Assembly (NCBI GenBank): GCA_017961325.1 | Contig: JAGCXM010000041.1 | Location: forward strand, 1 to 36,883 | Length of the DNA stretch: 36,883 nucleotides | From: a bacterium | GTDB lineage: Bacteria > UBP6 > UBA1177 | Direction of reading: 5' to 3' | Shown: positions 5,573-21,471 of the stretch, piece by piece | Layout: the number at the start of each line of letters is the position of its first letter | Numbering within the stretch: position 1 is the first letter of the stretch | Made by a program: the position numbers and the translations under genes | The notes under the pieces: model-generated | Told to the model about the DNA's origin: nothing | The model's input: the letters and a program-made list of their open reading frames with translations, nothing else | The model's database searches: none

Positions 5573-7087
5573 ATGTTTGAAAGAAAAATTTTATCCATTG
5601 TTTTTATTGCGTTTTTTTCTGTGAATCTTGCGGCGTCATCCGTTTTGGAGCTTGTAGGAGCGCAGGATTCTGTTCATCCGTTCACTTCGAGAATAATTTC
5701 GACCGGCGCCGAAGCGGCATACTTTAATCCGGCAGACCTCGCAACTCTCGATGATTCCTTTAAAATCGGATTCGGAATGACAATCCAGAACAAGTCGATA
5801 AGCCACGCGAAAAGACCTGACGGACACAATATAACCGATCTTATTTATGATGTTGACACCGGAAGCATGGGAGCAGGTATAGACGGATTTTACGCGCCCA
5901 TGGCGACAAAAGATCTGCTCAACAAGCGCGGATCGGCAGACTATGACTCTTTTGACGGCGTAATAACTCTTGGAGCCGTCAAGAACATCGCGAGAAAAAG
6001 CCTTGAAAAAATAGGCGGTCAGCTCACCGTCGGCGTTTATGCACTTATTCCGTTTTCCGGAATACAGACTCAGGAACCTTTTTTTAATGACGAAAGGGAA
6101 CAGTATTTTTCAAACAGTCTTCAGTTCGAGCTTTACGGTGACAGGCTTAAACAGTTCAGTGCTGCTGTTGCTCTTGCAGGAAGATTCGGCCGCTACTTCA
6201 GAATCGGCGCTGGTCTTGCGATTTCAACTTACACCAAGACTCAAAACCGTGTTTTCGTTCCGAGTCCTACTGATCCGGCGGTTCAGCTCATTAATGCGAA
6301 TATGAATGTCGGAGCTTCGGTCATGCCTTACTTTTCGTTCGTGGTCAATCCGGTTGCGGAATGGCATCTCACCGGAACGTTCCACTTTCCGACGAATACC
6401 GGGATAGTCAAGCTCAACAATGAAATGCAGGTCCTGGGTTGGGAATACGAAGAAGGAACCAAAACAGGATATCTTAAAGCGAATTCTTCAATGACGGCAG
6501 GTTATCAGCCGATAAAACTTTCAATCGGAACCTACTACGATTTCAAACTTCCGAAAGACTACATTCTTACTCCGATGGCCGGTTTTGAATGGTCACGCTG
6601 GTCGACTTACGTCAACCGTCACGGTGAAAAGCCGTCGGACAAATGGGACGATACTTTTTCAGCTACCGCAGGATTGATCATGCGTCATGCTGAACGCAGG
6701 GCAGCATTCGGCTTCAACTTTGTTCCAAGTCCGGTTCCTGCTCAGACCGGCAGAGAGAACTATGTTGACAACGACAGAATGGGTTTTTCACTTGGTTACC
6801 ACGAATATTTCGACATTACGGATCAAGTCAAGATCGGCGCCGGCATAAGCGGCTCGCTGCAGTGGTTACTCAGCAGAACGGAAGAGAAGGATCTCGAGCG
6901 TGAGATGAAGGACGGAGGACTTGTTGACGAACTTCCCGACGATGCGGAATATTACGGTTCTCAGGTTACCGCGGAAGAATTTGAAGAGATAAAGGCAGGA
7001 CTTCAGACGAATAATCCCGGTTTCCCGGGCTGGACAAGCAAAGGTTTTCTTTTGAATATAGGTGTTTCAGCAGAAGTTATATGGTAA
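5573..7087 (+). CDS. FadL/OmpP1/TodX-family outer-membrane transport protein
   Basis: A 504-residue predicted beta-barrel with a signal peptide (MFERKILSIVFIAFFSVNLAASS). Early in the mature protein comes the family pattern GAEAAYFNPADLATL (NPA motif), where FadL-type proteins have an N-terminal hatch region. The remainder alternates aromatic/hydrophobic strands with polar turns, and the chain ends in an aromatic residue (VSAEVIW), the usual outer-membrane assembly signal. FadL-like proteins let hydrophobic molecules such as long-chain fatty acids or aromatics cross the outer membrane; the substrate here is unknown. A GGTGG ribosome site precedes the ATG. Only 27 bases separate it from the next lipoprotein gene, so the two are probably co-transcribed. 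Confidence 0.85.
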   Translation: MFERKILSIVFIAFFSVNLAASSVLELVGAQDSVHPFTSRIISTGAEAAYFNPADLATLDDSFKIGFGMTIQNKSISHAKRPDGHNITDLIYDVDTGSMGAGIDGFYAPMATKDLLNKRGSADYDSFDGVITLGAVKNIARKSLEKIGGQLTVGVYALIPFSGIQTQEPFFNDEREQYFSNSLQFELYGDRLKQFSAAVALAGRFGRYFRIGAGLAISTYTKTQNRVFVPSPTDPAVQLINANMNVGASVMPYFSFVVNPVAEWHLTGTFHFPTNTGIVKLNNEMQVLGWEYEEGTKTGYLKANSSMTAGYQPIKLSIGTYYDFKLPKDYILTPMAGFEWSRWSTYVNRHGEKPSDKWDDTFSATAGLIMRHAERRAAFGFNFVPSPVPAQTGRENYVDNDRMGFSLGYHEYFDITDQVKIGAGISGSLQWLLSRTEEKDLEREMKDGGLVDELPDDAEYYGSQVTAEEFEEIKAGLQTNNPGFPGWTSKGFLLNIGVSAEVIW

Positions 7088-7114
7088 AATTAGCAACTTT
7101 TTAAGGAGGAAAAA

Positions 7115-8203
7115 ATGAAAAAATTCATGATTTCAATCGCAGCTATCTGTGCAGTAATTTTCTTTATTTCATGCGGAGATAACACTTCCACGAAACAAGA
7201 TGAGAACAATACCGAACCGGATACTGAAAATGGGACCGGTGACGAAAACGTAAAAGATGACGAAACCGAAAACGGTAACGGGAACGGAAACGTCGAAGAA
7301 ACAGATTCCGATGATCCGGCAGATTCAGGTGATCAGACCGATTCTGTCGAAGAAACAGATTCCGATGATCAGGCGGATTCAGAAGATCAGACTGATTCCG
7401 ACGAGCCTGAAAACTGTGAGCTCAGCGAACTTGAACAGGAATTCGTAGGAACATGGGCTCAGAAGATAATCCTTCGTTCTAAATCAAGTACGACTCTCGC
7501 CAAAAACGTTCCGAGCGTAACGACGCGTTACCTTGTTGTCGAAATAAAACCCGATGCGAACTGCAAACTTGATTTCAATAAAAAGGCGGACCAGATCTGC
7601 AGAACCGACAACAGAACCGGCGACAATATTGCAAATAAAGGTGTCGTAAAATTCAACGAACCCGATTCCAAATTCAACACGATTTTCCATCACTGGAAAC
7701 CTGCAGATCTCCCGGGACACGAAGGAGAGGCTTACCTTGAAATTGCGGAAGAAGGCGGAGAAAAGACATTCAAACTCAACAAAGACTGGGAACTCCGCGG
7801 TGCGAATATGAGTGATCCTTCGACGGAAGATATGGTTGCCAATAAAAATGATGCCAGAATTTTCGATCACGACGGTGACGGAAATGCTGCCTTCACAATT
7901 AAATTCAACGGTTTCGTAAGCGGTCCGATGTATTATGTCCAGAGACTCAGCCACGTCCTTACCGGAAAAGTCGTAGGCGAAGGCAAGATCGAAGGAAACG
8001 TAGAGTGGAGTGATGAACAGTTCGCTCACCCCGACACACCGAACGCGACCCTCAAAGGTCAGAAAACGACCGTTACCGATACGTCAATGAGTGTATTCCA
8101 GCTCGTAAAAGTTGATGATTCAATGGACTGTGCAACGCTTCTTGAGAATGCAAACAGCATTTTTGACATCGCTGATCCGAATACGGATGTTCCTCTTGAC
8201 TAG
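7115..8203 (+). CDS. Lipoprotein with an acidic repeat linker
   Basis: A 362-residue protein starting after a strong AAGGAGG site. The signal peptide ends in a lipobox (IFFISC, Cys21). Residues about 22-110 form a very acidic, low-complexity linker rich in D, E, N and T that contains two tandem 18-residue repeats (VEETDSDD...DQTDS). The rest (about 115-362) is a compact, probably beta-rich domain with a WAQK opening, several cysteines and segments such as FNTIFHHWKPADLPGHEGEAY. I do not recognise the family. It is likely anchored in the outer membrane with the linker acting as a flexible spacer. It follows the FadL-like gene closely and ends with a good terminator. Confidence 0.85.
   Translation: MKKFMISIAAICAVIFFISCGDNTSTKQDENNTEPDTENGTGDENVKDDETENGNGNGNVEETDSDDPADSGDQTDSVEETDSDDQADSEDQTDSDEPENCELSELEQEFVGTWAQKIILRSKSSTTLAKNVPSVTTRYLVVEIKPDANCKLDFNKKADQICRTDNRTGDNIANKGVVKFNEPDSKFNTIFHHWKPADLPGHEGEAYLEIAEEGGEKTFKLNKDWELRGANMSDPSTEDMVANKNDARIFDHDGDGNAAFTIKFNGFVSGPMYYVQRLSHVLTGKVVGEGKIEGNVEWSDEQFAHPDTPNATLKGQKTTVTDTSMSVFQLVKVDDSMDCATLLENANSIFDIADPNTDVPLD
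7292..7399 (+). repeat. Two tandem 54-bp repeats in the lipoprotein linker
   Basis: Units 7292-7345 and 7346-7399 match with a handful of substitutions. They encode the 18-residue acidic unit VEETDSDDxADSxDQTDS twice. Such in-frame tandem copies can expand or contract by slippage without breaking the gene. Confidence 0.85.
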
Positions 8204-8227
8204 ATTTTAGCAGATTCATGATTTTTA

Positions 8228-8257
8228 AGTCCCTCTGCGGAGGGGCTTTTATTTTTT
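8228..8257 (+). terminator. Intrinsic terminator after the acidic-linker lipoprotein
   Basis: An 8-bp stem (AGTCCCTC / GAGGGGCT, one G-T pair) with a TGCG loop, followed by TTTATTTTTT. It lies in the 66-base gap before the next gene, ending just before that gene's AGGAG site. The downstream gene must therefore use read-through or a promoter embedded upstream. Confidence 0.8.
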
Positions 8258-8269
8258 AGGAGTTCTTTT

Positions 8270-10039
8270 ATGAAGAATTTGGCAACAATGTTTTCGGTTC
8301 TCCTGCTGCTTGTGTTTGCAGTTTCTTGCAGCAATTCGACAACCCGGACCGGGACTGTTGACGACGATCCGATGGATAATGAACGGAACGATAATGAACA
8401 GAGTGACGCGGAAAATGACGATTCCGCCAGCGGTTCAGACGATGACGGTGACGATTCCGCCAGCGGCGGGGAAAACAACGGCACTACGCCCGGCAACAAC
8501 AATAAAATCGTTGAGAATCTTGAATTTGAATCGGGCTTTTTCTTTGTTGAAGGCGTAGAATATTCACTTAAATCGCGTTCTGACAAAACAGGAAAGGCGA
8601 TGATATGGTATAATTTCCAGCCGGCTGACGAGAATCCCGAAGAAAAACCGCTTTTTGTCTTTTACAACGGCGGGCCGGGTTCGGCGTCAGCGATCGTTTT
8701 TCTATACAACACTGCAAAAAGAACCGGTGATCAGGCGTTTTCCGAAGACGGTTTCGCCGAAAACGGTTCGAGTTGGACGCAGCTCGGAAATCTGCTTTAT
8801 GTCGATGCGCGTCAGACCGGATTTTCTTACGGCATAATAGACGATCCTGAAGACAGAAACGAAAGAAGAACCTATTTTTCGACTTCAAACTTCAACGTTT
8901 TTGCCGATGCGGCTGATTTCATCCGCGTCATTCTGCGCTTTTTGAAAACACATCCGGCGCTTGAATCGAATCCCGTCATTCTTGCCGGCGAAAGTTACGG
9001 CGGAACGAGATCAACGGCGATTCTCAACATTCTTCTCAATGTTGCCGATTATGCGGAAAACAACAGGGTTTTCTACGACGAAACGCTTTTCGAGGAAATA
9101 GCGGCCCATTTCAAAAGAATTGATTCAAATGTCAGCGGAATGCCTTCGAAAGAGGATGTCGCAAAACAGTTCGGCAGACAGATCATGATTCAGCCGCTCA
9201 TTGCCGGAAACGAACAGTTTGAAGCGGAAGGCGAACTTCTCGAACGTGATGACAGTCCGCTTTACGTCGTTCAGGATGAAACTGGAGTAAAATTCAACAA
9301 ATGCAGCGGTTTTAATTGTAATAAGCACAACAATGCGCTGATCTATATACAGCGTGCCGGACGCGATATTTACTCTTACCGCAGGCCTTACAACTGGCTT
9401 TTCGACTACACCGATGTTGCGACTGCGAAAATGCTGCATATGCCTATGTTTGAAGAGTTTATTCTGAATGATCCGCGCAAAATCGACGAACTTTACGCCG
9501 AGAACAGGACCGGTGTTTTCAGATATGCCGATGTTCCCAACTTATGCTCGAGAAATCTGACGGATGCTGCTTTTGCGGATCTTCCGGAAATTGAACGGAT
9601 CGTTTTGAAAAACCGCATCGTGCAGAGAAATCTGAAACCGCTTTCAACCGGAAATCTTGAAAGCGTTTTCGGTGATTTGCAGGCGTATGACGAATACTTC
9701 GTTGATTTGAACTACGACATAAATTCGGCGTTTTACAGCGGGGCGGTAAGCCATTATGACACGGTGAACGGCGAAATGTTCCTTGAAAACATAAAGAGCG
9801 TGAAAACTTTCATAACTCAGGCGGAAGAGGACATCATAATTTATGCGAAAGGTATTCCGGAATCCCTCAAGAGTTTCAACGGTGTTTCTGGCGTAACGGT
9901 CAAAGACGACTCTTTTACAGTCAACTTTTCGGACGGTCAAAACGTCGAAGTTACATTCCCGTTTTATCCCGAAAGTTCGCACAGCGTTTCCGTAAATCAG
10001 CCGGCTAAGTTCTTCAACGATGTCAGAAACTGGCTTTAA
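8270..10039 (+). CDS. S10 serine carboxypeptidase-like lipoprotein
   Basis: A 589-residue protein with a lipoprotein signal (VFAVSC, Cys20) and an Asp/Asn/Ser-rich linker to about residue 80. It then has a peptidase S10 alpha/beta-hydrolase domain: FVFYNGGPGSASA (oxyanion region), LLYVDARQTGFSYG, and GESYGG with nucleophile Ser242. The presumed catalytic Asp is D521 (AEEDIIIY) and the His is H571 (SSHSVSVNQPAKFF), both at the expected C-terminal places. S10 enzymes cleave C-terminal residues, usually at acidic pH, or act as acyltransferases. All triad residues appear present, although the usual GxxD before the Asp is altered. It is probably tethered at the outer surface or in the periplasm. 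AGGAG precedes the ATG. Confidence 0.9.
   Translation: MKNLATMFSVLLLLVFAVSCSNSTTRTGTVDDDPMDNERNDNEQSDAENDDSASGSDDDGDDSASGGENNGTTPGNNNKIVENLEFESGFFFVEGVEYSLKSRSDKTGKAMIWYNFQPADENPEEKPLFVFYNGGPGSASAIVFLYNTAKRTGDQAFSEDGFAENGSSWTQLGNLLYVDARQTGFSYGIIDDPEDRNERRTYFSTSNFNVFADAADFIRVILRFLKTHPALESNPVILAGESYGGTRSTAILNILLNVADYAENNRVFYDETLFEEIAAHFKRIDSNVSGMPSKEDVAKQFGRQIMIQPLIAGNEQFEAEGELLERDDSPLYVVQDETGVKFNKCSGFNCNKHNNALIYIQRAGRDIYSYRRPYNWLFDYTDVATAKMLHMPMFEEFILNDPRKIDELYAENRTGVFRYADVPNLCSRNLTDAAFADLPEIERIVLKNRIVQRNLKPLSTGNLESVFGDLQAYDEYFVDLNYDINSAFYSGAVSHYDTVNGEMFLENIKSVKTFITQAEEDIIIYAKGIPESLKSFNGVSGVTVKDDSFTVNFSDGQNVEVTFPFYPESSHSVSVNQPAKFFNDVRNWL
8416..8466 (+). repeat. Direct 18-bp repeat in the S10 lipoprotein linker
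   Basis: An identical 18-base unit (TGACGATTCCGCCAGCGG) occurs at 8416-8433 and 8449-8466, 33 bases apart and in frame. It encodes a repeated DDSASG segment of the acidic linker. Confidence 0.8.
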
Positions 10040-10059
10040 ATTTAGAATTCATTGTAATT

Positions 10060-10088
10060 TTGCATAAATCGGCGATTTAATGTATAAG
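10060..10088 (+). promoter_or_regulatory. Candidate promoter for the small lipoprotein gene
   Basis: TTGCAT (10060-10065) and TATAAG (10083-10088) with a 17-base spacer, about 40 bases before the start codon at 10129. A short palindrome (TAAATCG/CGATTTA) lies in the spacer. Predicted by eye from consensus only. Confidence 0.4.
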
Positions 10089-10128
10089 CGTTGCGATAGT
10101 TGTTTGGTTTGATAAAAAGGAGAGCAAA

Positions 10129-10650
10129 ATGAAAAAACTTATGTTGCTTTTGATTATTTTTTCGATGTTTATGACCGTTTCCTGCAACAAAAAGATGATT
10201 AAGGGGACAAATATCGAGGAAACGCCCGATTCAAAGGAGATTCTGACTGTTTTCGGCTATTATATGAAAGGATTCAAAGAGCAGAATCCCGATATTTTCT
10301 TGGAGTATATTTCCAAAAATTATTACGACACGAACGGAACGGACGAGGCCGGTGACGATATTGATTACGACAAACTTGTAGAGATTCTCAAATCCGATGC
10401 GTATCACAGCCTGGAAAAGGTGAACATCACCTGCATAATCAAGGATCTTCTGTTCGATGACGATAGCAGGGAGCGGGCGAGGCTGCTGTTCTTCTTTGAA
10501 GTCCGTTTCAAGATGAAAAGTTCTGTTCCTCCGGCTGAGGAAAACGCTTTCACCCAGCCGGACGGAATGACGAATCACAAGGTTTCAGAGAACAACCAGA
10601 TGAAATTCGTCAAAGAAGACGGCAAGTGGAAAATCGTCAGCGGAATTTAG
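10129..10650 (+). CDS. Small lipoprotein with an NTF2-like domain
   Basis: A 173-residue product with a lipoprotein signal (MKKLMLLLIIFSMFMTVSC, Cys19). The mature part reads like a SnoaL/NTF2-like cone fold: an opening helix with a YYMKGFKEQNPDIFLEYIS segment, central strands, and the closing MKFVKEDGKWKIVSGI, the typical last strand of these domains. No catalytic function can be assigned. AGGAGAG precedes the ATG. Its stop codon overlaps by four bases the stop of the convergent membrane-protein gene. Confidence 0.75.
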   Translation: MKKLMLLLIIFSMFMTVSCNKKMIKGTNIEETPDSKEILTVFGYYMKGFKEQNPDIFLEYISKNYYDTNGTDEAGDDIDYDKLVEILKSDAYHSLEKVNITCIIKDLLFDDDSRERARLLFFFEVRFKMKSSVPPAEENAFTQPDGMTNHKVSENNQMKFVKEDGKWKIVSGI

Positions 10651-11558
10651 AGCAAAACCCTTTTCACGAATATTATTCCCAAAGAAATAATCAGTGAGAC
10701 AGTCCCGAAAAACAGCGGGAAAAAGCGGTTCCCGGGAAGATTTGTCCCTTCATGCAGCAGAACCGCCGAAACAACGGTCGTTGTGCAGACTACTGACAGC
10801 AGGATGAAATCGGCGATGTTCGGCTGTTTCTGCAAAAAGCCGAGAATGTTTAACGATATAATCAGTCCGGCGCACAATGCGGCAAGCAAAAGTTTTTTGT
10901 TGCGCTTGAAAAGTTCAATGATTTCCGGCATAAAACATATGGAAAACGCGATAACCGCAGCTGTAAAATATACAAGTGACAGGAAAATGTGATTCTTGAA
11001 AATCGTGTTTATCGGGAAGTATGCTTTTGTATGAGGTGCTACGCCGAAAAGTTGCATGCCGGCTAGAAACATACTGCCGTAAAAGCCTATTATTATGTTT
11101 AAAAACGTTCTTAAAATGCTGCGGGAAACGATGTAGCTCAGTACTGCGAACGCAATAAGCAGGGCAATCATTTCAAAGAAGAAATAGCTGTCCTGTGTGC
11201 TGAATCTGTATAGCGTTAAAATATCCAGCAGCGCTTTAGAGAAGTCGCCGCGCAGATACTGGAGTTTTATCGGAGTTCCCTCAATCCATGCGTGGACAAG
11301 CGGAATGTAAATGATAGGACTTAAAAGTGCAAGGTATTGAATTTTATCGACTTTTAGCCCGAGAATATAGCGTGCGCACAATGCGAAATAAAAGAAAACG
11401 AAAGTAAACCACATGGAGTGGTGAGTTGCCACGAAATATGAAAAGAACGGTGTTCTGGCAAACACTTCAGTTTCAAGATAAACTCTTGATAATATTACCA
11501 TAAACAGGAATATAAAAAAAAGGCTCTCTGGGATTTTACCTGGTTTTATGCTTTTCAT
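10647..11558 (-). CDS. Polytopic membrane protein of the VTC/TolC operon, unknown family
   Basis: A 303-residue hydrophobic protein with about nine predicted membrane helices. The ATG at 11558 (MKSIKPGKIPESLFF) is preferred over a start at 11606 because GAGG lies just upstream and the earlier start would run far into the DUF4956 gene. The few charged loops include THHSMW (between early helices) and HAWIEGTP. I recognise no family. It is the last gene of the five-gene operon, seven bases after the DUF4956 gene, so it is probably a partner of the VTC/DUF4956 pair in the inner membrane, for instance part of a channel. No terminator is needed for its convergent neighbour, because the two stops overlap. 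Confidence 0.75.
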   Translation of the reverse strand: MKSIKPGKIPESLFFIFLFMVILSRVYLETEVFARTPFFSYFVATHHSMWFTFVFFYFALCARYILGLKVDKIQYLALLSPIIYIPLVHAWIEGTPIKLQYLRGDFSKALLDILTLYRFSTQDSYFFFEMIALLIAFAVLSYIVSRSILRTFLNIIIGFYGSMFLAGMQLFGVAPHTKAYFPINTIFKNHIFLSLVYFTAAVIAFSICFMPEIIELFKRNKKLLLAALCAGLIISLNILGFLQKQPNIADFILLSVVCTTTVVSAVLLHEGTNLPGNRFFPLFFGTVSLIISLGIIFVKRVLL

Positions 11559-11565
11559 TGCAGCC

Positions 11566-12252
11566 TCAAAGTTCGACGGTCGTCTCCTGCAGCAGGAGCG
11601 CGACATTTTGCATTGCGGGAATTTCTTCCTTCAACTCTTTAACCAGTTCTTCGGAAGTCGTTTTCGGCTTCATTTTGATGTGGTAGGCGTATTCAAGCCT
11701 TTCGCCGACGGCGATTTCCTTCAAAGTGATAAGCGCGAAAACCTTGCAGTGTTTTTTCAGAATTTCACCCATTTTCTGAATGTCGAGTTCGCTTGTCGCA
11801 ATGTTGAAACGTAAAATTCCGTCAAAGTATGATGCCTTGCTGACCTGAGAAAAATAGAGAACGAATGCCGCGATGTCGAAAAATATAATCCCTACGAAGG
11901 CCATAAGATAGGCGCCGATTCCGCAGGCGATTCCGCTAGACAACGCGGCGAACATAAAAATAATGTCTCGCGGATCCTTGAAATTCGTTCTGAAACGGAT
12001 GATCGAAAGGGCGCCCAAAGTTCCTATTCCCGTTGCAACGCTGTCGCCGATAGCATGCATTATCGTTGCCGTTATGATTGAAACAAGCATCAGCGCCTGA
12101 ACGAAGTTTCTCGAATAGGAAAGGCCGCGGAAAGTTTTTATGTAAGTCAGGCCTACAGAAACTGAAAGAATGAACGCAAGTGCTGCCGCAAAAATCACGC
12201 TGAGCGGTGAAAGCGGCGAAGAAGAAAGGTTGTTCGTCAGGAAATCAGTCAT
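11566..12252 (-). CDS. DUF4956 membrane protein
   Basis: A 228-residue protein with about four membrane helices and a soluble C-terminal domain. The conserved core LGALSIIRFRTNFKDPRDIIFMFAAL (about residues 78-103) is the hallmark of DUF4956, a family frequently encoded next to VTC-domain polyphosphate polymerases. The C-terminal half (about 150-228) resembles a small ferredoxin-like regulatory fold ending TSEELVKELKEEIPAMQNVAL. The ATG at 12252 is chosen because GGAG stands at proper distance. It overlaps the VTC stop by eight bases; upstream in-frame ATGs at 12264 and 12276 are possible. Its biochemical function is not established; co-occurrence suggests it handles the VTC product or its precursor at the membrane. 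Confidence 0.88.
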   Translation of the reverse strand: MTDFLTNNLSSSPLSPLSVIFAAALAFILSVSVGLTYIKTFRGLSYSRNFVQALMLVSIITATIMHAIGDSVATGIGTLGALSIIRFRTNFKDPRDIIFMFAALSSGIACGIGAYLMAFVGIIFFDIAAFVLYFSQVSKASYFDGILRFNIATSELDIQKMGEILKKHCKVFALITLKEIAVGERLEYAYHIKMKPKTTSEELVKELKEEIPAMQNVALLLQETTVEL

Positions 12253-13069
12253 ATATTTCTCCATAGTTTGAAACATTATACCAGATGTTTTCAGGTTTGT
12301 TGTTCAATATCATACGCCTCATTCCGTAGCGGAATTTTGAAAACGCCAGAGACTTCAAATCAAACGTTTTCACAAGATCGACCATCCAGAGCGGAAGATT
12401 TGCTACAGAACCTTTTAGCTCGAGAATGCACTGTGCCTCCGTTCCGAAAATATTGGAAGTGTCATAGCTTTCCATCTGTTCTTTCGGCGGACGGATATTG
12501 AAAGAGCGTTCTTCGACAGCCTTGAAATTGGCATCAAAAGTGACTCTTGCGTATTCGTCGGTTTCGCTTATCCACGCCATCCGGTCGTATTGTGTCAGAA
12601 TTTTCGGCTCGGCGTTGTATGAGAGTGCGAGGTATTGAAACATATCCATATTTTTTGCATTAGTTCCGGTAAGACCGAATTCTTCCGAAGCTTTTAGAGA
12701 GTAAAAAACCTTTTCAATGTCGTCGCAGTTCAGTTTTACCCTGTATTTTTTTCTGTTTTCGCCGAATTTGCACTTGATTTCCCAGAAGTATGGCGGTTCG
12801 GGATTTTCGCCGTAAGATCGGATCCGCATATTGAAGCGGTTTTCCTTTTTTTCCAGACGGTTTTTCAAGAAAGTGTAGAACGGCGTGTCGAAATAAAGGT
12901 TGTTTATCCTGTAAAACTGGTTCGGCGAAGTCTCGGAATATTTGTCGAGAAAACAGTAGGCTTTGACGAAGTCCGAAATCGGCCTGATCATATCGCGGGA
13001 AATGTGGTATTTGTATTCGAAACGCTGTAAGACGGACGGAATTTCGGTCTGTGTGCTGGTTTTGCTCAT
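12245..13069 (-). CDS. VTC-domain polyphosphate polymerase
   Basis: Predicted to polymerise the gamma-phosphate of ATP into polyphosphate, as the yeast VTC4 catalytic domain and its bacterial relatives do. The 274-residue product is essentially the isolated tunnel domain. It has the N-terminal RFEYKYHI (16-23), the basic strand MRIRSYG, EIKCKFGENRKKYRV, YDRMAW, ARVTFDANF, CILELKG and the closing KFRYGMRRM. These supply the ring of Lys/Arg residues and the acidic metal ligands of the tunnel, so the enzyme looks active. No transmembrane segment is present; the partner DUF4956 protein probably brings it to the membrane. ATGA overlaps link it to the preceding TolC-like gene. Confidence 0.9.
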   Translation of the reverse strand: MSKTSTQTEIPSVLQRFEYKYHISRDMIRPISDFVKAYCFLDKYSETSPNQFYRINNLYFDTPFYTFLKNRLEKKENRFNMRIRSYGENPEPPYFWEIKCKFGENRKKYRVKLNCDDIEKVFYSLKASEEFGLTGTNAKNMDMFQYLALSYNAEPKILTQYDRMAWISETDEYARVTFDANFKAVEERSFNIRPPKEQMESYDTSNIFGTEAQCILELKGSVANLPLWMVDLVKTFDLKSLAFSKFRYGMRRMILNNKPENIWYNVSNYGEIYD

Positions 13070-14304
13070 TCGGTTTTTCCGTAGAGAAAGTTTCTGCCGT
13101 TTTCATCTTCATACATTCCCGAAAGATAGGCTAAATTTATGTATCTTTCGTAGATTTTAAGTTCCAGTTCCGCCATTTTGAGCTCTTTTTTCAGGATTCG
13201 TTCCTTTAATTTGATGATCATCAGCGGATTTACCCCTTCGATCGAGGAATATTTTGACATTATGCCGCTTTTTTCCACTTTTTTCTTTCTTTCTGCAAGC
13301 ACTCTGTACTGCCTGATTTCACGCTTCAACATTATCAGGGCGCTGCGGATTTCCGCCTTTTTGATTCGGCTCTGAGTGTCAAACTCGGAAGTTTCTTCCA
13401 ATGATTTCAGATGTTTTTTCAAAATTGAAGTCTGATTGTTCTTGAATCCTGGAATCGAAATCGCAAAACCTATGGAAAATCCGCGTGAAGGTCTGTCATT
13501 GCGGTTTTCGGTGTCGTATTCAATTGCAATGTATTTCAGCCAGTCCCTCTCCTTCGCCTCTTCAAGTGCGATTTCGTTCCGTGCAACTATCGCCCTCAGC
13601 GTCTGCAGATCGGATTCCGTCTTTGAAGCGCCGGAAATCTCACCGAGCGAATCGGCGAATTCTTCGATTCCATCTATCGAGATGATTCTTTCTTTATCGA
13701 AAACGGGTTTTTTTTCTGAATTCATATCGCTTCGGACGGTGTTTTCTATCGATTCGACCGTTGATTCAAGTTCGATTTTTTTCATTTCAAAGTCGGTGAT
13801 TTTGTCTTCGATATCCATTTTGTCGATTTCGGTCGTTTCGGCAGTCATCGCTCCGATTTTTTCGGTGACGGAAAGCTTGTCTTCAAGCAGTTCCTGCATC
13901 GAATAGATGAGTTTCAGTTCTTTTTTGTGCTGAATGTAGTAAACTATCGCGCTGTATCTTTCAAGCAGAACTTCTGAACGTGCTGATTTGTATCCTAGTC
14001 TGTAGATATTCTGCGAGTTTTTGATGAATTCGCGGGTGGCTTTCGTTTCGCCGAAACCCCTGAAATAGAGGCGCAGAGCGTAAGTCTGCTCAAGAATGTC
14101 GAAATTTCCCGTTTCACTTCTGAATTCAAGATTTTTTACCCACGGCGTGTTGCTGTAACTTTCAAAAGAATCAGACAAATTTTTTTTTGATGTGATACGC
14201 GGATCATTTTTTGCCGATTCGATGTATTCGGCAATCGTAAGATCTTCACAAAAAACAAGCTGAGCAAAGAAAAGTATGAAAAAAATCGGTGGAAAACGCT
14301 TCAT
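13066..14304 (-). CDS. TolC-like outer-membrane efflux protein
   Basis: A 412-residue protein with a signal peptide (MKRFPPIFFILFFAQLVFC, then EDLTIAEYIESA, the usual TolC-family opening). Long heptad-rich helices follow at roughly residues 90-215 and 270-400, as in the periplasmic tunnel of TolC trimers, with short strand-like segments (YALRLYFRGFG, IGFAISIPGF) for the barrel. The family normally forms a continuous duct across the outer membrane. It sits directly after the membrane fusion protein gene (ATGA overlap), the classic adaptor-channel pairing. No ABC, RND or MFS pump gene is in the operon. Sequence similarity to classical TolC is low, so the specific subfamily is uncertain. Confidence 0.8.
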   Translation of the reverse strand: MKRFPPIFFILFFAQLVFCEDLTIAEYIESAKNDPRITSKKNLSDSFESYSNTPWVKNLEFRSETGNFDILEQTYALRLYFRGFGETKATREFIKNSQNIYRLGYKSARSEVLLERYSAIVYYIQHKKELKLIYSMQELLEDKLSVTEKIGAMTAETTEIDKMDIEDKITDFEMKKIELESTVESIENTVRSDMNSEKKPVFDKERIISIDGIEEFADSLGEISGASKTESDLQTLRAIVARNEIALEEAKERDWLKYIAIEYDTENRNDRPSRGFSIGFAISIPGFKNNQTSILKKHLKSLEETSEFDTQSRIKKAEIRSALIMLKREIRQYRVLAERKKKVEKSGIMSKYSSIEGVNPLMIIKLKERILKKELKMAELELKIYERYINLAYLSGMYEDENGRNFLYGKTE

Positions 14305-16370
14305 ATTCTGCCCAAATTCAGAAATTTCGAGTTTTCATTCTGACCTAGATCGAAAAATATGAAAAAATTTTTGTTTTCATCAACGGCAATCCCTTCGGGT
14401 TTAAGTTCCGGAAAGTCTTTCAAAATGGTGCTTTTTCCGTTTTTGAACCTGTAAAAACCGCCGCATTTTTCGTTAGTACAGGAAGCAGTGAAGAAAAATT
14501 CCTCTTTTGAAATCATGTAAATATCTGAAATTCTTCGTTCTTTCGGCAAATCTTCAATAAATGAAAGCTTCAGCTGATTTTCGGACAGTTTTCTTTCCGC
14601 AAAAATTTCGGCGTAGTCGGAAATCTCTAAAATCACCACCTTTCCTTTAAAAAGCGGATTCTTGAATGCAACGAAAAGCGAGTTCCCGAGAACCGACATT
14701 CCTTCAATATCGATTGATTTTCCTAAGATTCCGCTTTTCAGAAATTCAGCCGCGTCCGAGTTTGATTTTTCGGCAAAATCTTTAAGGATTCCGTAAAAAT
14801 CGACCGGTTTTTCAAGTTTTGCCGAATTATCCGAAACGGTGATTCTTGCCAGAATTCTTCTTTCGGGTTTAAGCTTTCCTTTTTTGGAATAGCTTAGCGA
14901 CGACATGATAAGATATGAATTCCCCGACTCTTTTGCTATCGATTCCAAATCATTGATTTTATTGAAATTTTCAATTAGAACTCTTTCCGCTTTTCCGTTT
15001 TTGTCAACCGAAAAAACAATCGGGGTTTTCCTTTCGGTTTCATCCGAAACGACGAGGAATCTGCCGGTTTCAGTAACGAAAACCGCACCTGACGCCTCTA
15101 TTTTCACCGATTCTCCCGAAACAATGCTTTTAAGCCCTTCGCCATTTTGGAGATGGGACGGGGTGAGGTTAGTGTCTCCCTTGCCGTTCCGAAGAGATGT
15201 TTCCTGAAACGTCCCGCTTTCTTCCGTTTTTTGAGGTTTATTCAGTTTTTTTTTATCTCTTTCTTGAGCGGAAAGTTTGGAATGCGGGAACGAAAAAAGT
15301 GATTCCGCGACTCTTTCAAATCCGTTTCTGCCGCCTGAAATCGTCACTTTTTCACCCAAAATGAAGCCGTTGTTTTCGGGAATCTTCACGATGATCTCCC
15401 TGCCCCAGATCTCGATGTTCGGATTTTTCAGAAGACGCGCCGGAAGCGGGACTATCCTTCCTCCGAGCCCTGTTACGATGCCGTGAACCGGCTCGTTAGC
15501 GTTTGCCGACGAAATCGTTACTTTGTCTCCGGTTTTTATAACCGAAAACTGCGATTCAGGAATGTAACCTTTGACGAACGACGGTTCTTTGTTGACTATC
15601 GAAAGAATCGGGCTGTATGCCGCTATTTTTTCACCGCCCTTGAAAAAAATCTTTTCGCCGTTGCCGTTTTTTACGAAAACGCTGCCGACGATTCCTTCAA
15701 AAGGTGCGTAAAGCGCCATGTTTGAATTCTGTTTTTCAAGTGATTCTAGTTCTGCTTGGAGTTTCTCCGCTTCGACATCTTCCGGAGTTCCGCCGCCTTC
15801 TAGCATTTTTTTATACATTCTGTTGATTTCGGCGAACTCTTTTTTCCGCTCTTCCATAGCCGACTGCAGTGATTCAATCTGAATTTCTACCGGATTTTTC
15901 GTAGAATCGGATGAGTTCGTAATTTTAACGCTTTTAAGCCCGCCGGAAAGCTCTCTGTTGATTTTAAGCTGGTTTTCGAGAGTCTTTATCTGCGTTTTGA
16001 GTTCGCTCGTAACGGCGCGTTCAGCCGCTTTGTTCTGGAGTATTTTCGATTTGATTTCAGCTTCGCTCATTCCCCGTTTCGTCTGAATCTGAAGAAGCTG
16101 CGTACGGATGTCGGCGATTCTGAGCGTCAGTTCCTGACTTTCGAGTTCTGCGAGTTTCTGCCCTTCGGAAACGGAATCGCCTTCCATAACCAGAATCTTT
16201 TTTATGCTTACGGAAGTGTCTGAATTTATTATTGTTTCATTTGATTCGGCAAATCCCTGGAAAGTCGTTGTCTCATCTCCGGCATATATGATTATACCGA
16301 CAACGACGGCAGTTAAAACGGCAACGAATGAGAGTAGAAGAGTCAGTCCCTGAATTTTAGTATTGTACAA
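14301..16370 (-). CDS. HlyD-type membrane fusion protein fused to a DUF3616-like propeller
   Basis: A 689-residue two-part protein. Residues 1-350 form a periplasmic adaptor: an N-terminal membrane helix (8-30), first lipoyl half (about 48-78, EGDSVSEGQKLAELES), coiled-coil hairpin (80-215), second lipoyl half (220-232, LYAPFEGIVGSVF) and a beta-barrel region to about 345. A polar linker (365-415) leads to a C-terminal domain (about 420-689) resembling the DUF3616/strictosidine-synthase-like propeller, with the repeated motifs EASGAVF...GRFLVVSDET, DIEGMSVLGNSLFVAFKNPL and KPEGIAVDENKNFFIFFD. Standard adaptors end after the barrel, so the fusion is unusual. The start is a TTG at 16370 with GAGGG nine bases upstream. 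A promoter precedes it and the operon continues with TolC, VTC and DUF4956 genes. Confidence 0.8.
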   Translation of the reverse strand: MYNTKIQGLTLLLSFVAVLTAVVVGIIIYAGDETTTFQGFAESNETIINSDTSVSIKKILVMEGDSVSEGQKLAELESQELTLRIADIRTQLLQIQTKRGMSEAEIKSKILQNKAAERAVTSELKTQIKTLENQLKINRELSGGLKSVKITNSSDSTKNPVEIQIESLQSAMEERKKEFAEINRMYKKMLEGGGTPEDVEAEKLQAELESLEKQNSNMALYAPFEGIVGSVFVKNGNGEKIFFKGGEKIAAYSPILSIVNKEPSFVKGYIPESQFSVIKTGDKVTISSANANEPVHGIVTGLGGRIVPLPARLLKNPNIEIWGREIIVKIPENNGFILGEKVTISGGRNGFERVAESLFSFPHSKLSAQERDKKKLNKPQKTEESGTFQETSLRNGKGDTNLTPSHLQNGEGLKSIVSGESVKIEASGAVFVTETGRFLVVSDETERKTPIVFSVDKNGKAERVLIENFNKINDLESIAKESGNSYLIMSSLSYSKKGKLKPERRILARITVSDNSAKLEKPVDFYGILKDFAEKSNSDAAEFLKSGILGKSIDIEGMSVLGNSLFVAFKNPLFKGKVVILEISDYAEIFAERKLSENQLKLSFIEDLPKERRISDIYMISKEEFFFTASCTNEKCGGFYRFKNGKSTILKDFPELKPEGIAVDENKNFFIFFDLGQNENSKFLNLGRI

Positions 16371-16489: not shown

Positions 16490-18490
16490 CTATTTAGCCA
16501 GGACAAGTTCCGTCGGGAAAACGATTTGAAAAACAGTTCCGTTCGGCGAAGTTTCCTTGAGAATAATGGTTCCGCCTGAAAGTTTTACGATTTTTTCGCA
16601 GGTCGCGAGTCCCAAGCCGTTTCCGTTCTTTTTAGTCGTGTAGAACGGTTCGAAAACTGCGTTTCTGTGTTCCGGCGGAATACCCGGACCGTTGTCTGCG
16701 ACTTCGATAAGCAGTTTTCTCCTCTTTTTAGTTGCGATAACTTTGATTCTTCCCTGCCGATCGGTTTTTTCAAGTGCCTGAAGGCTGTTGTTTACGAGAT
16801 TTACAAAGACGTTTTTCAGGACATCCCAGTCGAAAACGAATTCTTTGCCTCCGGTTTGGTCAATAAAATCAACTGTTTGATCTGCATAACGGAAAAACTG
16901 CTTCATTTCGGCAAAAAACGATCTGAAATTGTAGGGATAAGGTGAAAGTTTGATGTTTCTGCCGTAAGCGAGCATTTTTTCGATAGTTTCATTGAGTCTT
17001 TTCAGTTCTTTGAGCGAAATATCCAGATATTCCGTATCAACATCCTTTTTTCTGTCAACGGCGTCTTTAACGACTTCTATGTTGAACATAATCGAGGTCA
17101 TGGGAGAACGCAGTTCATGCGCCACGAACGAGAGCATTTTGTCGACTTCATTGAAATGCTTGAAGATTTCTACTTTTTTTTCTGATTCTATGACAGTCGC
17201 GAAAAGAGAGAGTTTTTCATATTTGTTGAGGGTGATTTCAATCATGTTGTTGACGCAGAGCATGGCGTTATGTGAAATCTGTTTTGAATTTATTACGAAA
17301 AAACCTGAAAGTTCGTTGTGATAGACGACTGGAATGAAAAAGTCGCCGCCGGTTTTTTTTACGAATCCTTCAAGCAGAGGCTCTGAAATCAATGCGGAGT
17401 TTTTTGAAAGGTATGTTTCGTGCAGAAAAATCTGTTCGCTGAAAAGCGGCTGGAAATCTTCGGTTCCGCTGTAAAGTTCTGAAGGGATCGCGCTGCTCCG
17501 GTCGAAAGGTTCCTCGAAATAGACGTATTTGAACTGTTTTATCTCGTGAAACCAATCTGTGACACAATTGTTAAATTTTGTAAAAAGTGTTGAAATTTCA
17601 GCTACATCCTCTATCTCAATGCGGTATTTGTTAAGGCAGGTCTGGTAGTAGTTTCTGCTTTTGTGAATAAAACTTTCGACCGATGAGGAAAAGTAGGAAA
17701 TCAGAATTCCGGCGATCATGAAAACCGCAAAAAGCATGATGAGAACAATTAACGAAAAGTATGCGCTTCCGAATAATTTTAAGACAAAAAACCTTAATGA
17801 AAACAATGTTTCAATTAGGAAAGAAGCCAATATCGAGTATAGTAAGAATAGCCAGAAATTCGTTTTGTTGATTCCTGTAGAAGAAATAGTGTTGGTGTGG
17901 ACGAAAAATCCGATGACTGAAACATAAGCGACCGTGAAAATTATAAGCAGAACATTGAAATAAACTGGGTTGTAAAACATTGCGGCAAAAGCCGAGACAA
18001 GGGAAATAAGACACGAAACCAAAGCGACGGCTGAAATGTTGAAAATTACGTATTTTTTTACATTGCTGTTTAAGTATTTGATCTTTCTAAGAATTATAGG
18101 AATGTCGATTGCGATGAAAAGGATCGGAACGACAAAATAAACCAAATAAATCGTACTTTTCATATAGGCGAAAAGAGCTGCAGAAACAATGAGCGACAAA
18201 ATTATTATTGCTCCCCAGATAAAATTGGGAAGGACGCCGTGAGGAAAAGAATATATGTAAAGAGTTGAAAATATTGAAAAACTAAGCAACGCTACGAAAA
18301 AGTAGACTTTGGAGAATGGAAAGTAGACCGCTGCAACCGACGAAAAAATAAAAACGCTTGAAATCAGGATGAAAAACATCCAGAGATTCTGAGGAAGTCC
18401 GCGCCCTTTTATCATTATGTGCCAGCCTAAGGCCGAGGTGATTGTTGCGCAGAAAATGATTAAAAATAAAAAAACAGCAGATTCAGTCAT
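16490..18490 (-). CDS. Sensor histidine kinase with a polytopic membrane sensor
   Basis: A 666-residue kinase. Residues 1-275 contain about nine membrane helices, a membrane-embedded sensor module rather than a periplasmic one. A GAF-like stretch follows (about 300-430, FFIPVVYHNELSGFFVINS). The HisKA box FVAHELRSPM gives the phospho-accepting His458. The ATPase has an N box (NLVNNSLQAL), DNGPGIPPEH (G1), EPFYTTK (F) and GNGLGLATC (G2), all intact. The layout resembles PrsK-type kinases that pair with sigma54 response regulators, but the orthology is not established. It overlaps the response-regulator stop by eight bases, so they form a cognate pair. The signal is unknown. Confidence 0.92.
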   Translation of the reverse strand: MTESAVFLFLIIFCATITSALGWHIMIKGRGLPQNLWMFFILISSVFIFSSVAAVYFPFSKVYFFVALLSFSIFSTLYIYSFPHGVLPNFIWGAIIILSLIVSAALFAYMKSTIYLVYFVVPILFIAIDIPIILRKIKYLNSNVKKYVIFNISAVALVSCLISLVSAFAAMFYNPVYFNVLLIIFTVAYVSVIGFFVHTNTISSTGINKTNFWLFLLYSILASFLIETLFSLRFFVLKLFGSAYFSLIVLIMLFAVFMIAGILISYFSSSVESFIHKSRNYYQTCLNKYRIEIEDVAEISTLFTKFNNCVTDWFHEIKQFKYVYFEEPFDRSSAIPSELYSGTEDFQPLFSEQIFLHETYLSKNSALISEPLLEGFVKKTGGDFFIPVVYHNELSGFFVINSKQISHNAMLCVNNMIEITLNKYEKLSLFATVIESEKKVEIFKHFNEVDKMLSFVAHELRSPMTSIMFNIEVVKDAVDRKKDVDTEYLDISLKELKRLNETIEKMLAYGRNIKLSPYPYNFRSFFAEMKQFFRYADQTVDFIDQTGGKEFVFDWDVLKNVFVNLVNNSLQALEKTDRQGRIKVIATKKRRKLLIEVADNGPGIPPEHRNAVFEPFYTTKKNGNGLGLATCEKIVKLSGGTIILKETSPNGTVFQIVFPTELVLAK

Positions 18491-19880
18491 CTTTCCGAAG
18501 ATCGTATTCTTCTATTCTCTTGTCAAGCGTAGGCCGGGTAATTCCTAATAATTCAGCGGTCTTACCTTTGTGCCAGTTCGTTTGTTTAAGTACGAACTCT
18601 ATGTAATTCTTTTCGACGTCGCGAAGAGGGAGCAGCTTGTCTGGCGTATTGAAAAATTCGCAGACATTCTGTTTTTCCTTGGGATCGTTCTGCTCCTTTT
18701 TTTCGGGAATGAGGAAAACAAAACTGTCGCGCGTCAGGATTTTGTCCTTCGCCTTTATTGAAGCGCGGAGAATCGTGTTTTCAAGTTCGCGGATGTTGCC
18801 TGGCCACGAATGAGTGCTTAAAAAATCAAGTGCCTCTTTCGTGATGCTCTGGATCGAAGTGTTCATCATGAGGTTAGCCTTTTTGATGAAGTGGAGCGTT
18901 AGCATTTCCAGGTCTCCGATGTGGTCGCGCAGCGGTGGTACCGAAATCGTGATGACGTTGAGCCGGTAGAAGAGGTCTTCGCGGAATTTGCCGTTTTCGG
19001 CTAGTTCCTTCAGATTTTTGTTGGTGAGTGCGACGATTCTGCCGTGAAAACGCTTTTTTTCAGTCGCTCCGATCGGATAAAAGTCCTTTTCCTGAATGAC
19101 GCGCAGAAGTTTTGTCTGAAATTCGTAAGGCATTTCCGATATTTCATCGAGAACGAGCGTCCCGCCCTTCACCGCTTCGAGTTTGCCCTCGCGGTTTGTT
19201 GCCGCGCCCGTAAAAGCTCCCTTGACATAGCCCATAAGTTCGCTTTCAATGAGGTTTTCAGGGACTGCGGCGCAGTTTATGGCGATGAAAGGCTCTTCCG
19301 GCACGGTGTTTTCGTGAATCGCTCTTGCGACCATCTCCTTTCCTGTGCCGCTTTCGCCGGTAACAAGCACTGTCGCCTTGTTTCCCTTCAAAGTTCCGAT
19401 CGTTTTGTAAATATCGATCATCAGTGAATCTCTGCCGATAATCGTGTCTTTGAACGGAGTGCTGTCAGGTTCGACGAAGTGTGCAATTCTCTCTTTCAAA
19501 GTGAGCGTTTCAAGTGCCCTTTCGACTGCGGCACGGAGTTTTTCAAGCGGAACCGGCTTGCTCAGAAAATCGTAAGCCCCTAAATTTGTTGCCTTTACTG
19601 CCGCATCAAGATCGCCGTAGGCCGTGAGCATTATTATTAAGGGAATATCTTTTTTGTTGAAGGTTTTGTTCAAATCCTCCAAAAGTTCAAGCCCCGTTTT
19701 AACGGGCATGTTTATGTCGAGAAGCACCAGATCGGGGCTTTCCTTTTCGATTGCGATATATCCTTCACGCCCGTCGTTGGCAGTGAAGACGGAATAACCT
19801 TCAGATTCCAGGTATTTCTGATAGCTTCTCGAAATCGAAAGATCGTCATCGACTATGAGGATTTTCCATTTATTTTTCAT
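18483..19880 (-). CDS. NtrC-family sigma54 response regulator
   Basis: A 465-residue activator. Receiver domain 1-125 has the acidic pocket D11-D13, phospho-acceptor D55 (LVLLDINMP), T86 and K108 (SKP). The AAA+ domain 145-380 has Walker A GESGTGKE (175-182), the sigma54-contacting loop GAFTGA (221-226) and Walker B LVLDEISE (242-249). The C-terminal Fis-type helix-turn-helix is WHKGKTAELLGITRPTLDKRI. It should activate sigma54 promoters when phosphorylated by the kinase encoded next. The ATG at 19880 (MKNKWKILIV) has GGAG seven bases upstream and lies one base after the preceding stop; an in-frame ATG 30 bases earlier is less likely. No target promoter was recognised in the window. Confidence 0.95.
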   Translation of the reverse strand: MKNKWKILIVDDDLSISRSYQKYLESEGYSVFTANDGREGYIAIEKESPDLVLLDINMPVKTGLELLEDLNKTFNKKDIPLIIMLTAYGDLDAAVKATNLGAYDFLSKPVPLEKLRAAVERALETLTLKERIAHFVEPDSTPFKDTIIGRDSLMIDIYKTIGTLKGNKATVLVTGESGTGKEMVARAIHENTVPEEPFIAINCAAVPENLIESELMGYVKGAFTGAATNREGKLEAVKGGTLVLDEISEMPYEFQTKLLRVIQEKDFYPIGATEKKRFHGRIVALTNKNLKELAENGKFREDLFYRLNVITISVPPLRDHIGDLEMLTLHFIKKANLMMNTSIQSITKEALDFLSTHSWPGNIRELENTILRASIKAKDKILTRDSFVFLIPEKKEQNDPKEKQNVCEFFNTPDKLLPLRDVEKNYIEFVLKQTNWHKGKTAELLGITRPTLDKRIEEYDLRKDD

Positions 19881-19881
19881 T

Positions 19882-21471
19882 TTAAATCTCCTGGACTTCC
19901 GATTTTTCATTCAAATAGCGCTCGATAATGTCTGTTTCAGCCGGAGTCAGTTTGAAAAGCTGGTAGAAAAATCCGTCAAGTCTTGCCGAAAGTGATGAAA
20001 TTTCGGCACGCCGAAGTTCGTTGTCGCCGGTCAGGGCGATGTCGTTGTAAATTTTGCGGATTTTGACAACCAGTTCGGAAATAATCTTCTGAATATTTTT
20101 CTGACAGAGGATAAACGGAATTTTATTGAAGTTTTTCTTCAAGAATTTATTGTGGTGCGGGAATTTTATCTTGTAGAAAAACTCGACTATTTTTGAATTC
20201 AGATAACTTTCGGCAAAAAAGAAATCTATTTCCGAAGTTCGCGGAATGACCGCCGCGACGTCGTTCATGAAGTAAAGTCCGTCTTCGTCATAGGCGAAAA
20301 CCGGCTTTACCGAAAGATATTTCATAAGCAGCTTTCTGCTTTCGAAGTTGCTTTCCAGCGGGATTTGGAAAAATGCGTCGGGATCGGGATAAATGTATTT
20401 TTTTATCTTGAAACTGTTGAAAGGAACGATTTCCTTCGATGTTACGAGAGGACGGTAAGCCGCACTTTTTCTGAGCGGCTCAATGAGTTTGTCTACCGGC
20501 GCGTTTCTGAACATTCCGAGGAAGAATTTGAAGTAATCCCCGCATGTTGCTCCTGCGCGTTCCTCAATTTTTGCAATGAGTGAAAGCTGATCGGCGGTTA
20601 CGCCGTCGTTAAACGTGAAAAGATGGTTGAAATCGAGGCAGTTCCTGTCAAGTTCAAGCACTTTTCCGCTTGTCAGATCACGGATAATGACATTCTGAGG
20701 CAGCGCAGGAACGCGCCCTTCGATTCTTTTGAGCATTTTTATCTGCAGAAAGTCGGCAAAACGGTCTATTTCTTCAGTTTCAAAAAGTGAATAAAGGGTC
20801 TTTTTGTCTTTTCTGGTAAGAGGAGATGAAAGGAATATTTTCTTGGCGAAAAGATAGAAAACTGAGTCATATTTCAGCAGAACGGACAAGGTGTTGAGCA
20901 GACTTTCGCTCGGAAAGGAGTAATTCACCGAATCGTCGATGACGATGTCGAAGTTCTGCGGTCTCAGCTGCGTGTTGTCGTCGTTCAGAAAGTCAAACAG
21001 GGTCGTCTGAATCGAAATCGAAAGTTCGGCTTCTCTTGAAATCGGATAATATTCAATGTTTTTAAAAGGTTGTTCGTGAGTTCTTTCCGGGCAGTAACCG
21101 ATGAAAAGCTGAATTTTTTTCTCGGTTTCGTAAGGCAGGACGATCGAATCGGTGAGAAGAAGCACGGACTGTCTCGGCTGAACTTTTATGTTCTGAATTT
21201 CAATCACCTTTTCAGTTGGAAGCGAGAGAATTGCGCTTATCGAAAGCGACATCACGAAATCACGCCCCAGTCTGTCGGAAAATTCGTTGTTGAGAAGCGA
21301 AAAATCGCTTTTTGCTATTCCTACCAGAGTATTTGCCGCCGGACGCTTGTTAAGCTGCGAAAGCCAGAATTTGTTCAGCAGAAATGCATACGGATCGGAC
21401 TTTACCGATTTTTGCTTGATAAAATCTTTGATTTCGTAAAAAAGTTTTACAAGTTTTTTTCTTTTATCCAT
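19882..21471 (-). CDS. Degenerate type IIG/TaqI-like DNA methyltransferase-specificity protein
   Basis: A 529-residue protein. Residues 300-529 read like the target-recognition region of type IIG (Eco57I/TaqI-like) restriction-methylation enzymes: GDYFKFFLGMFRNAP, YRPLVTSKEIVPF (matching the usual 'PLLRGKDI.RY' pattern), FESRKLLMKY, YLNSKIVEFFYK, FNKIPF and the closing helix LTPAETDIIERYL. Upstream, FDIVIDDSVNY (174-184) sits where the catalytic FDxVIxNPPY motif belongs and is followed by LLKYDSVFYLFAKKIFL, equivalent to the strand-helix after that motif. NPPY is lost and no clear SAM-binding motif I is visible, so methylation activity is unlikely. It is the first gene of the kinase/regulator operon, one base before the regulator. 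The role is unknown; DNA or partner binding is inferred. Confidence 0.6.
   Translation of the reverse strand: MDKRKKLVKLFYEIKDFIKQKSVKSDPYAFLLNKFWLSQLNKRPAANTLVGIAKSDFSLLNNEFSDRLGRDFVMSLSISAILSLPTEKVIEIQNIKVQPRQSVLLLTDSIVLPYETEKKIQLFIGYCPERTHEQPFKNIEYYPISREAELSISIQTTLFDFLNDDNTQLRPQNFDIVIDDSVNYSFPSESLLNTLSVLLKYDSVFYLFAKKIFLSSPLTRKDKKTLYSLFETEEIDRFADFLQIKMLKRIEGRVPALPQNVIIRDLTSGKVLELDRNCLDFNHLFTFNDGVTADQLSLIAKIEERAGATCGDYFKFFLGMFRNAPVDKLIEPLRKSAAYRPLVTSKEIVPFNSFKIKKYIYPDPDAFFQIPLESNFESRKLLMKYLSVKPVFAYDEDGLYFMNDVAAVIPRTSEIDFFFAESYLNSKIVEFFYKIKFPHHNKFLKKNFNKIPFILCQKNIQKIISELVVKIRKIYNDIALTGDNELRRAEISSLSARLDGFFYQLFKLTPAETDIIERYLNEKSEVQEI

Follow-up and report, generated by a model that had tools for sequence, protein, structure and literature searches.

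What is a polymerase of the polyphosphate-making VTC family doing in one operon with what look like the parts of a trans-envelope duct? The question is raised by contig JAGCXM010000041.1 (GenBank assembly GCA_017961325.1) from a bacterium of the UBP6 lineage (UBA1177), analyzed here as a stretch of 36,883 nucleotides that we call the window. Five tightly packed open reading frames (ORFs) on its minus strand (10647-16370) encode, in this order, a periplasmic adaptor, a TolC-like protein, a VTC protein, a DUF4956 membrane protein, and a polytopic membrane protein. The first four recur together in several phyla. The best reading of those considered, which we hold with slightly better than even confidence, is that they constitute a synthase-coupled machine for polyphosphate export.

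Gene order and spacing were read from the ORF list of the window, and family calls are those of Pfam. The adaptor gene (14301..16370; 689 amino acids [aa]) specifies an HlyD/EmrA-type protein with an N-terminal membrane anchor, HlyD_D23 and HlyD_3 matches above cut-off, an adaptor region at residues ~30-350, and a C-terminal beta-propeller at residues ~415-689 (approximately 14301..15128), recognized by profile comparison. The start of the TolC-like gene (13066..14304; 412 aa), which was assigned from a weak OEP match, its position, and its hydrophobicity, sits within the end of the adaptor gene. The overlap is 4 bases, as is that between the TolC-like gene and the VTC gene (12245..13069; 274 aa). 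The DUF4956 gene (11566..12276) encodes 236 aa, or 228 aa from a start at 12252, so that its overlap with the VTC gene is 32 or 8 bases depending on the start chosen. A 7-base gap separates it from the gene for the polytopic protein (10647..11558), which has ~8 transmembrane segments and no Pfam family.

This layout agrees with the original prediction, a model's reading of the window, which had placed five genes here, overlapping or spaced by 7 bases. The identities that it gave to the VTC protein (PF09359, 144 bits against a cut-off of 23), the DUF4956 protein (PF16316, 40.4 bits against 30.6), and the adaptor-propeller were recovered as well, whereas the TolC-like identity is weak in the window protein and better matched in relatives. 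Its proposal of a single promoter was not borne out: a sigma-70 scan gave no match upstream of the adaptor gene, and its matches overall were at chance level.

Conservation of the four-gene module

The VTC gene was detected in 13 of the 15 genomes of the genus, the window's included, and the order adaptor-TolC-VTC-DUF4956-membrane protein is kept in all 13 as far as their contigs reach. VTC was not found in G011 (72% complete), where the adaptor and TolC-like genes lie at a contig end, or in G005 (77% complete). Most loci near-identical to the window were sampled from the rumen or elsewhere in the ruminant gut.

Beyond the genus, we scanned genome contigs with a DUF4956 alignment and obtained 56 loci, of which 53 were scored; L086 and L087, with distant DUF4956 proteins and without the set, and L083, which was not scorable, were left out. 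All four core genes (adaptor, TolC-like, VTC, DUF4956) stand together in 42 of the 53, in a sample that leans toward this outcome because the scan patterns were derived from duct-linked DUF4956 proteins. Nine loci are incomplete at a contig or locus end, and the other two are considered below. The phyla represented are UBP6, Thermodesulfobacteriota, Pseudomonadota, Campylobacterota, Nitrospirota, Fibrobacterota, and, through one metagenome-assembled genome (MAG) so labeled, Spirochaetota; MAG phylum labels may be wrong, as for G018, labeled Sumerlaeota yet placed by the genome collection in the same family as the window. Spacing between module genes is mostly -4 to +20 bases. The order kept in the VTC-bearing genomes of the genus and the 42 four-gene loci from multiple phyla put this arrangement far beyond chance.

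The genes occur in two orders, adaptor-TolC-VTC-DUF4956 in UBP6 and Thermodesulfobacteriota and DUF4956-adaptor-TolC-VTC in all other lineages. Both are consistent with a tree of the concatenated DUF4956 and VTC proteins, on which the former corresponds to one change, with only 81% support at the fork joining it to its one long-branched member. Among 369 genomes drawn evenly from the class to which G072 belongs (Methylococcales; labeled Gammaproteobacteria), five carried DUF4956 at E <1e-20, three of which match duct-bearing loci. Taken with the multi-phylum loci, this frequency indicates that the module is rare but widespread. No relative was found in viral contigs.

The fifth gene is not part of this core. 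Outside the window's genus, the polytopic protein is absent from the module; DUF4956 is followed by a lipoprotein with lamin-tail (LTD)-like sequence in sister genus G016 and by a CotH lipoprotein in sister genus G018. Its homologs are found in UBP6 genomes without detected VTC (G015, G017, G020, and G022-G024), where they adjoin unrelated genes wherever the neighborhood was inspected. Since relatives have homologs without the module, we regard the protein as a local passenger or accessory at the genus level. The original prediction was to be doubted if the five genes were not kept together in relatives, and it suggested that the DUF4956 and polytopic proteins may replace a pump. Joint conservation holds for the four core genes and not for the polytopic protein, which we rejected both as a core component and as part of a pump substitute. 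What survives of the proposed export machine is a pumpless duct genetically locked to VTC and DUF4956 over several phyla, with phosphate-transport neighbors. A structure model of the polytopic protein was unusable (predicted local distance difference test [pLDDT] score of 46). In genus genomes, polytopic homologs (L119, 6078-6992; L120, 6504-7418) stand beside an HD-type-like protein and Rnf-subunit-like genes, as judged by eye.

Probable polymer synthesis and the proposed inner-membrane step

The VTC protein has no predicted transmembrane segment and aligns to solved Vtc4 structures with an E value of 6.9e-12. Its R82, R84, E97, K99, and K108 correspond to Vtc4 R264, R266, E279, K281, and K294, and its R163, R175, E217, K219, and K245 to R361, R373, E426, K428, and K458; counterparts of R296, Y359, D377, and S457 are likewise present. 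Every mapped active-site residue is invariant in 28 of 28 relatives, and R16, E18, and K20 of the window protein are also invariant among relatives. Yeast VTC is inactivated by changing R264, R266, and E426 (PMC9911596), and K458 has been named catalytic (PMC4641920). In the phosphatase AtTTM3, glutamates replace four basic residues that guide the polymer from the active site (PMC4641920); Vtc4 K294 and K428, which are K108 and K219 in the window protein, appear to be among the positions exchanged. We judge polymerase activity quite likely. PPK1 was not detected in the window genome. It is present in 13 of 25 other module carriers, so that VTC there is not simply a PPK1 replacement.

A structure model of the DUF4956 protein (mean pLDDT 79; predicted template modeling score [pTM] 0.58) consists of a hydrophobic helical bundle and a C-terminal ferredoxin-like domain. 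The protein carries an invariant basic motif, R94-F-R96-T-N98-x-K100-D101-x-R/K103-D104, whose R94-F-R-T-N-x-K100-D part, with R94, R96, and K100, is unchanged in 36 of 36 relatives; further basic positions are conserved. Yeast VTC couples synthesis with translocation, and the basic residues that line its channel are needed for vacuolar polyphosphate (PMC9911596). DUF4956 may similarly act as a pore here; given polymerase activity, passage of the product through it across the inner membrane is fairly likely.

The genes around the module suggest that the polymer is one of phosphate. Genes for phosphate uptake were seen at six loci. In L071 and L080, a Pit phosphate transporter gene lies within the module, between those for the TolC-like protein and VTC; in L054, Pit comes directly behind VTC. 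A PhoU-family protein is encoded after the module in L072 and L085, and in L069 the module is followed by pstS-phoU-pstC-type genes, whose products are a phosphate-binding-type protein, PhoU, and a Pst-type permease. Among 158 neighboring ORFs inspected, five were Pit or PhoU-like against ~0.1 expected by chance, a rough estimate that assumes a frequency of about one in 3,500 genes for Pit and likewise for PhoU-like genes and is drawn from loci that are not fully independent. Polyphosphate synthesis by the module is well supported at the level of sequence; its export is what we infer.

The predicted duct and the proposed export route

The best solved relatives of the adaptor are EmrA and MacA. 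With one over-long ORF and two fragments cut by contig ends set aside, the adaptors of relatives fall into a short class of about 305-385 aa and a long class of about 607-731 aa; the C-terminal propeller, which the module's adaptor usually has, belongs to the long class. Five Campylobacterota loci in which the adaptor is short have a divergent neighboring gene for a propeller lipoprotein (SdiA-regulated/phytase-like), and the fused propeller matches these stand-alone lipoproteins in profile comparison (hhalign 96.8%, E 2.8e-10). Because the propeller occurs either fused to the adaptor or as a protein of its own, depending on the lineage, it probably works together with the adaptor. From the adaptor topology it would lie at the inner-membrane end, where the periplasmic part of a pump normally docks. 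A phytase-like protein beside L054 was not detectably homologous to the adaptor propeller (hhalign 2.4%), which leaves those of Campylobacterota as the only propellers that we take to be separated partners.

The TolC-like protein has a hydrophobic N-terminus resembling a signal peptide. Its assignment is weak by sequence and comes from gene position and from OEP family matches at E <0.001 in 5 of 25 relatives, the best being 5.8e-7. In L076, no TolC-like gene is found between the adaptor and VTC genes (8001-10623), and in L081 an opposite-strand insertion apparently splits the TolC-like gene (12598-15058). As originally predicted, the window operon has no ABC, MFS, or RND pump detectable with Pfam. 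Nor does any pump family recur among 58 selected neighbors of relatives (best 25 of 98 families), although a single-copy pump could be missed there.

In the export reading, the cytosolic VTC protein would, like yeast Vtc4, use ATP to build the phosphate chain. DUF4956 would form an inner-membrane pore whose invariant basic motif pulls in the nascent chain, much as basic transmembrane helices do in the channel of yeast VTC. From there the chain would cross the periplasm and the outer membrane by way of the adaptor, whose propeller would lie next to the inner membrane, and the TolC-like channel, driven by its own growth and the membrane potential without a pump. We infer the outward direction and the final location at the surface, where the chain might serve as a coat or as a reserve of phosphate, in many species alongside CotH/LTD proteins. 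These surface proteins form the largest cluster of neighbors, at 14 loci other than the six with phosphate-uptake genes, and provide a link with the CotH-PPP-DUF4956 genes that border Pel operons in Gram-positives (PMC7112168). CotH is present in sister genus G018 and at other loci and had no match in the window genome. At L060, a Cthe_2159-family carbohydrate-binding protein is encoded directly beside the module (5862-7994).

Alternative readings, known systems, and surrounding genes

Several observations count against this model. The N-terminal tunnel part of the VTC protein, the K200 region included, gave no alignment to Vtc4. Foldseek searches with the DUF4956 model matched only the small C-terminal domain and returned no informative pore relative, and an MgtC domain in this protein scored 21.1 bits, below the Pfam cut-off of 31.4. 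The OEP match of the window TolC-like protein (E=0.013) is below the Pfam cut-off, and no solved-structure relative of the protein was found. Two of the 53 loci are apparently real exceptions, L076 without a TolC-like gene and L082 without VTC. To these are added the possible bias of the locus sample and the remaining two of the five DUF4956-bearing Gammaproteobacteria, with weaker DUF4956 matches, in which VTC, DUF4956, and CotH-like genes have no adjacent duct. Read from ORF sequences, these VTC-DUF4956 pairs (L111, 8647-12766; L112, 7840-11829) are each accompanied by a CotH-like, beta-helix-like protein, and the type appears to be a ductless relative in diderms.

It may be that VTC and DUF4956 make polyphosphate and move it across the inner membrane, that the product stays periplasmic, and that the co-regulated adaptor/TolC-like pair exports something else or passes phosphate or metal ions. 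Gram-positives (PMC7112168) and those two Gammaproteobacteria have VTC/DUF4956/CotH sets with no duct alongside, which implies that VTC and DUF4956 can work without one. We nevertheless regard a periplasmic product as unlikely: the duct-linked clade has the adaptor at every locus whose contig extends far enough, the TolC-like and VTC genes are nearly always there, usually with overlapping starts, and Pit lies between them in two loci. If the module made only periplasmic polyphosphate, it would be a variant of the VTC/DUF4956 set.

The product may also be something else. VTC could hydrolyze or bind triphosphate as an energizer, with the complex exporting another polymer, such as an acidic polysaccharide, or modifying surface proteins with CotH. 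In streptococci and clostridia, the related CotH-PPP-DUF4956 set is a neighbor of the operon for Pel polysaccharide (PMC7112168), a Cthe_2159 carbohydrate-binding protein adjoins the module at L060, and the invariant E18 may place an acidic residue near the tunnel entrance. Against this, all mapped catalytic residues are kept, K458 included, phosphate-uptake genes recur beside the module, no glycosyltransferase is recurrent among its neighbors (best 25 of 98 families), and CotH was not found in the window genome, so that we consider it quite improbable. EmrA/HlyD-family adaptors normally pair with a pump, and the adaptor clearly belongs to this family. An ordinary tripartite efflux system with its pump elsewhere, VTC and DUF4956 being unrelated operon passengers, is nevertheless already disfavored and very improbable, as the same four genes occur in seven phyla and two orders with no recurrent pump (again the best 25 of 98 families).

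Compared with known systems, the module shares with the eukaryotic VTC complex (Vtc1/Vtc3/Vtc4) a polymerase of the triphosphate tunnel metalloenzyme (TTM) fold with the same mapped active-site residues, a membrane partner with conserved basic residues, and a proposed coupling of synthesis to translocation. It differs in that its partner is DUF4956, that an adaptor and a TolC-like duct are added, and that its product would reach the periplasm or the outside rather than the vacuole. Pfam detected neither an SPX domain nor a VTC-type (Vtc1-type) membrane domain among the window proteins, where only VTC, DUF4956, and HlyD matched at relevant scores. The CotH-PPP(VTC)-DUF4956 accessory genes that adjoin Gram-positive Pel operons likewise place VTC beside DUF4956, and CotH accompanies many duct-linked loci too; adaptor and TolC-like genes are not reported there (PMC7112168), the window genome has no CotH match, and no Pel gene was recognized near the window operon in the scans run. 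Tripartite efflux systems (EmrAB-TolC, MacAB-TolC, HlyBD-TolC) have neighboring HlyD/EmrA-family adaptor and TolC-like channel genes as well, whereas the module is pumpless, has DUF4956 at the inner-membrane position, and has an adaptor with a C-terminal propeller. Synthase-dependent polysaccharide export (Pel, poly-N-acetylglucosamine [PNAG], cellulose, alginate) similarly couples polymer synthesis to a trans-envelope route in one operon. There, in contrast to the module, the polymer is not inorganic as predicted here, the enzyme is a glycosyltransferase rather than a TTM protein, and a tetratricopeptide repeat (TPR)/beta-barrel porin takes the place of the TolC-like channel and HlyD adaptor. 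We know of no machinery for the export of bacterial polyphosphate outside the cell. For the gonococcal pseudo-capsule, which also consists of polyphosphate outside a Gram-negative cell, ppk genes have been discussed and outer-membrane translocation was left to unidentified gene products (PMC10237660).

In line with the original prediction, no described system of the same composition was matched among the papers searched, which included few subscription journals or preprints. The parts belong to known families; what seems to be new is their combination and the idea of a TolC-like duct that a polymerase supplies with polyphosphate. Whether the module represents an undescribed class of trans-envelope secretion, in which polyphosphate is threaded through a pumpless pore, a propeller adaptor, and a TolC-like channel to the surface in at least seven phyla, we consider evenly balanced. 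It is a concrete candidate for the synthesis and export of surface polyphosphate, which is known to occur in Gram-negatives. If export were true, bacteria would have a dedicated route for placing polyphosphate outside the cell, and DUF4956 and bacterial VTC proteins would gain a role. A polymerase could then take the place of the pump in feeding TolC-like ducts, and the translocation mechanism of eukaryotic VTC would have a bacterial counterpart.

Downstream of the operon, a small, conserved lipoprotein gene (10129-10650) is convergent with it, the 3' ends sharing 4 bases, and is kept in place in every genus genome examined. A histidine kinase and an NtrC-type sigma-54 regulator with low-level resemblance to a PrsK/PrsR-type model are encoded directly upstream (16490-19910); they were rejected as dedicated regulators, as the other genomes of the genus do not have them at this locus. 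Elsewhere, the window encodes a lipoprotein of the serine carboxypeptidase (S10) family, unusual for a bacterium (8270-10039), and a large 1648-aa ORF that ends a plus-strand gene run (31715-36661).

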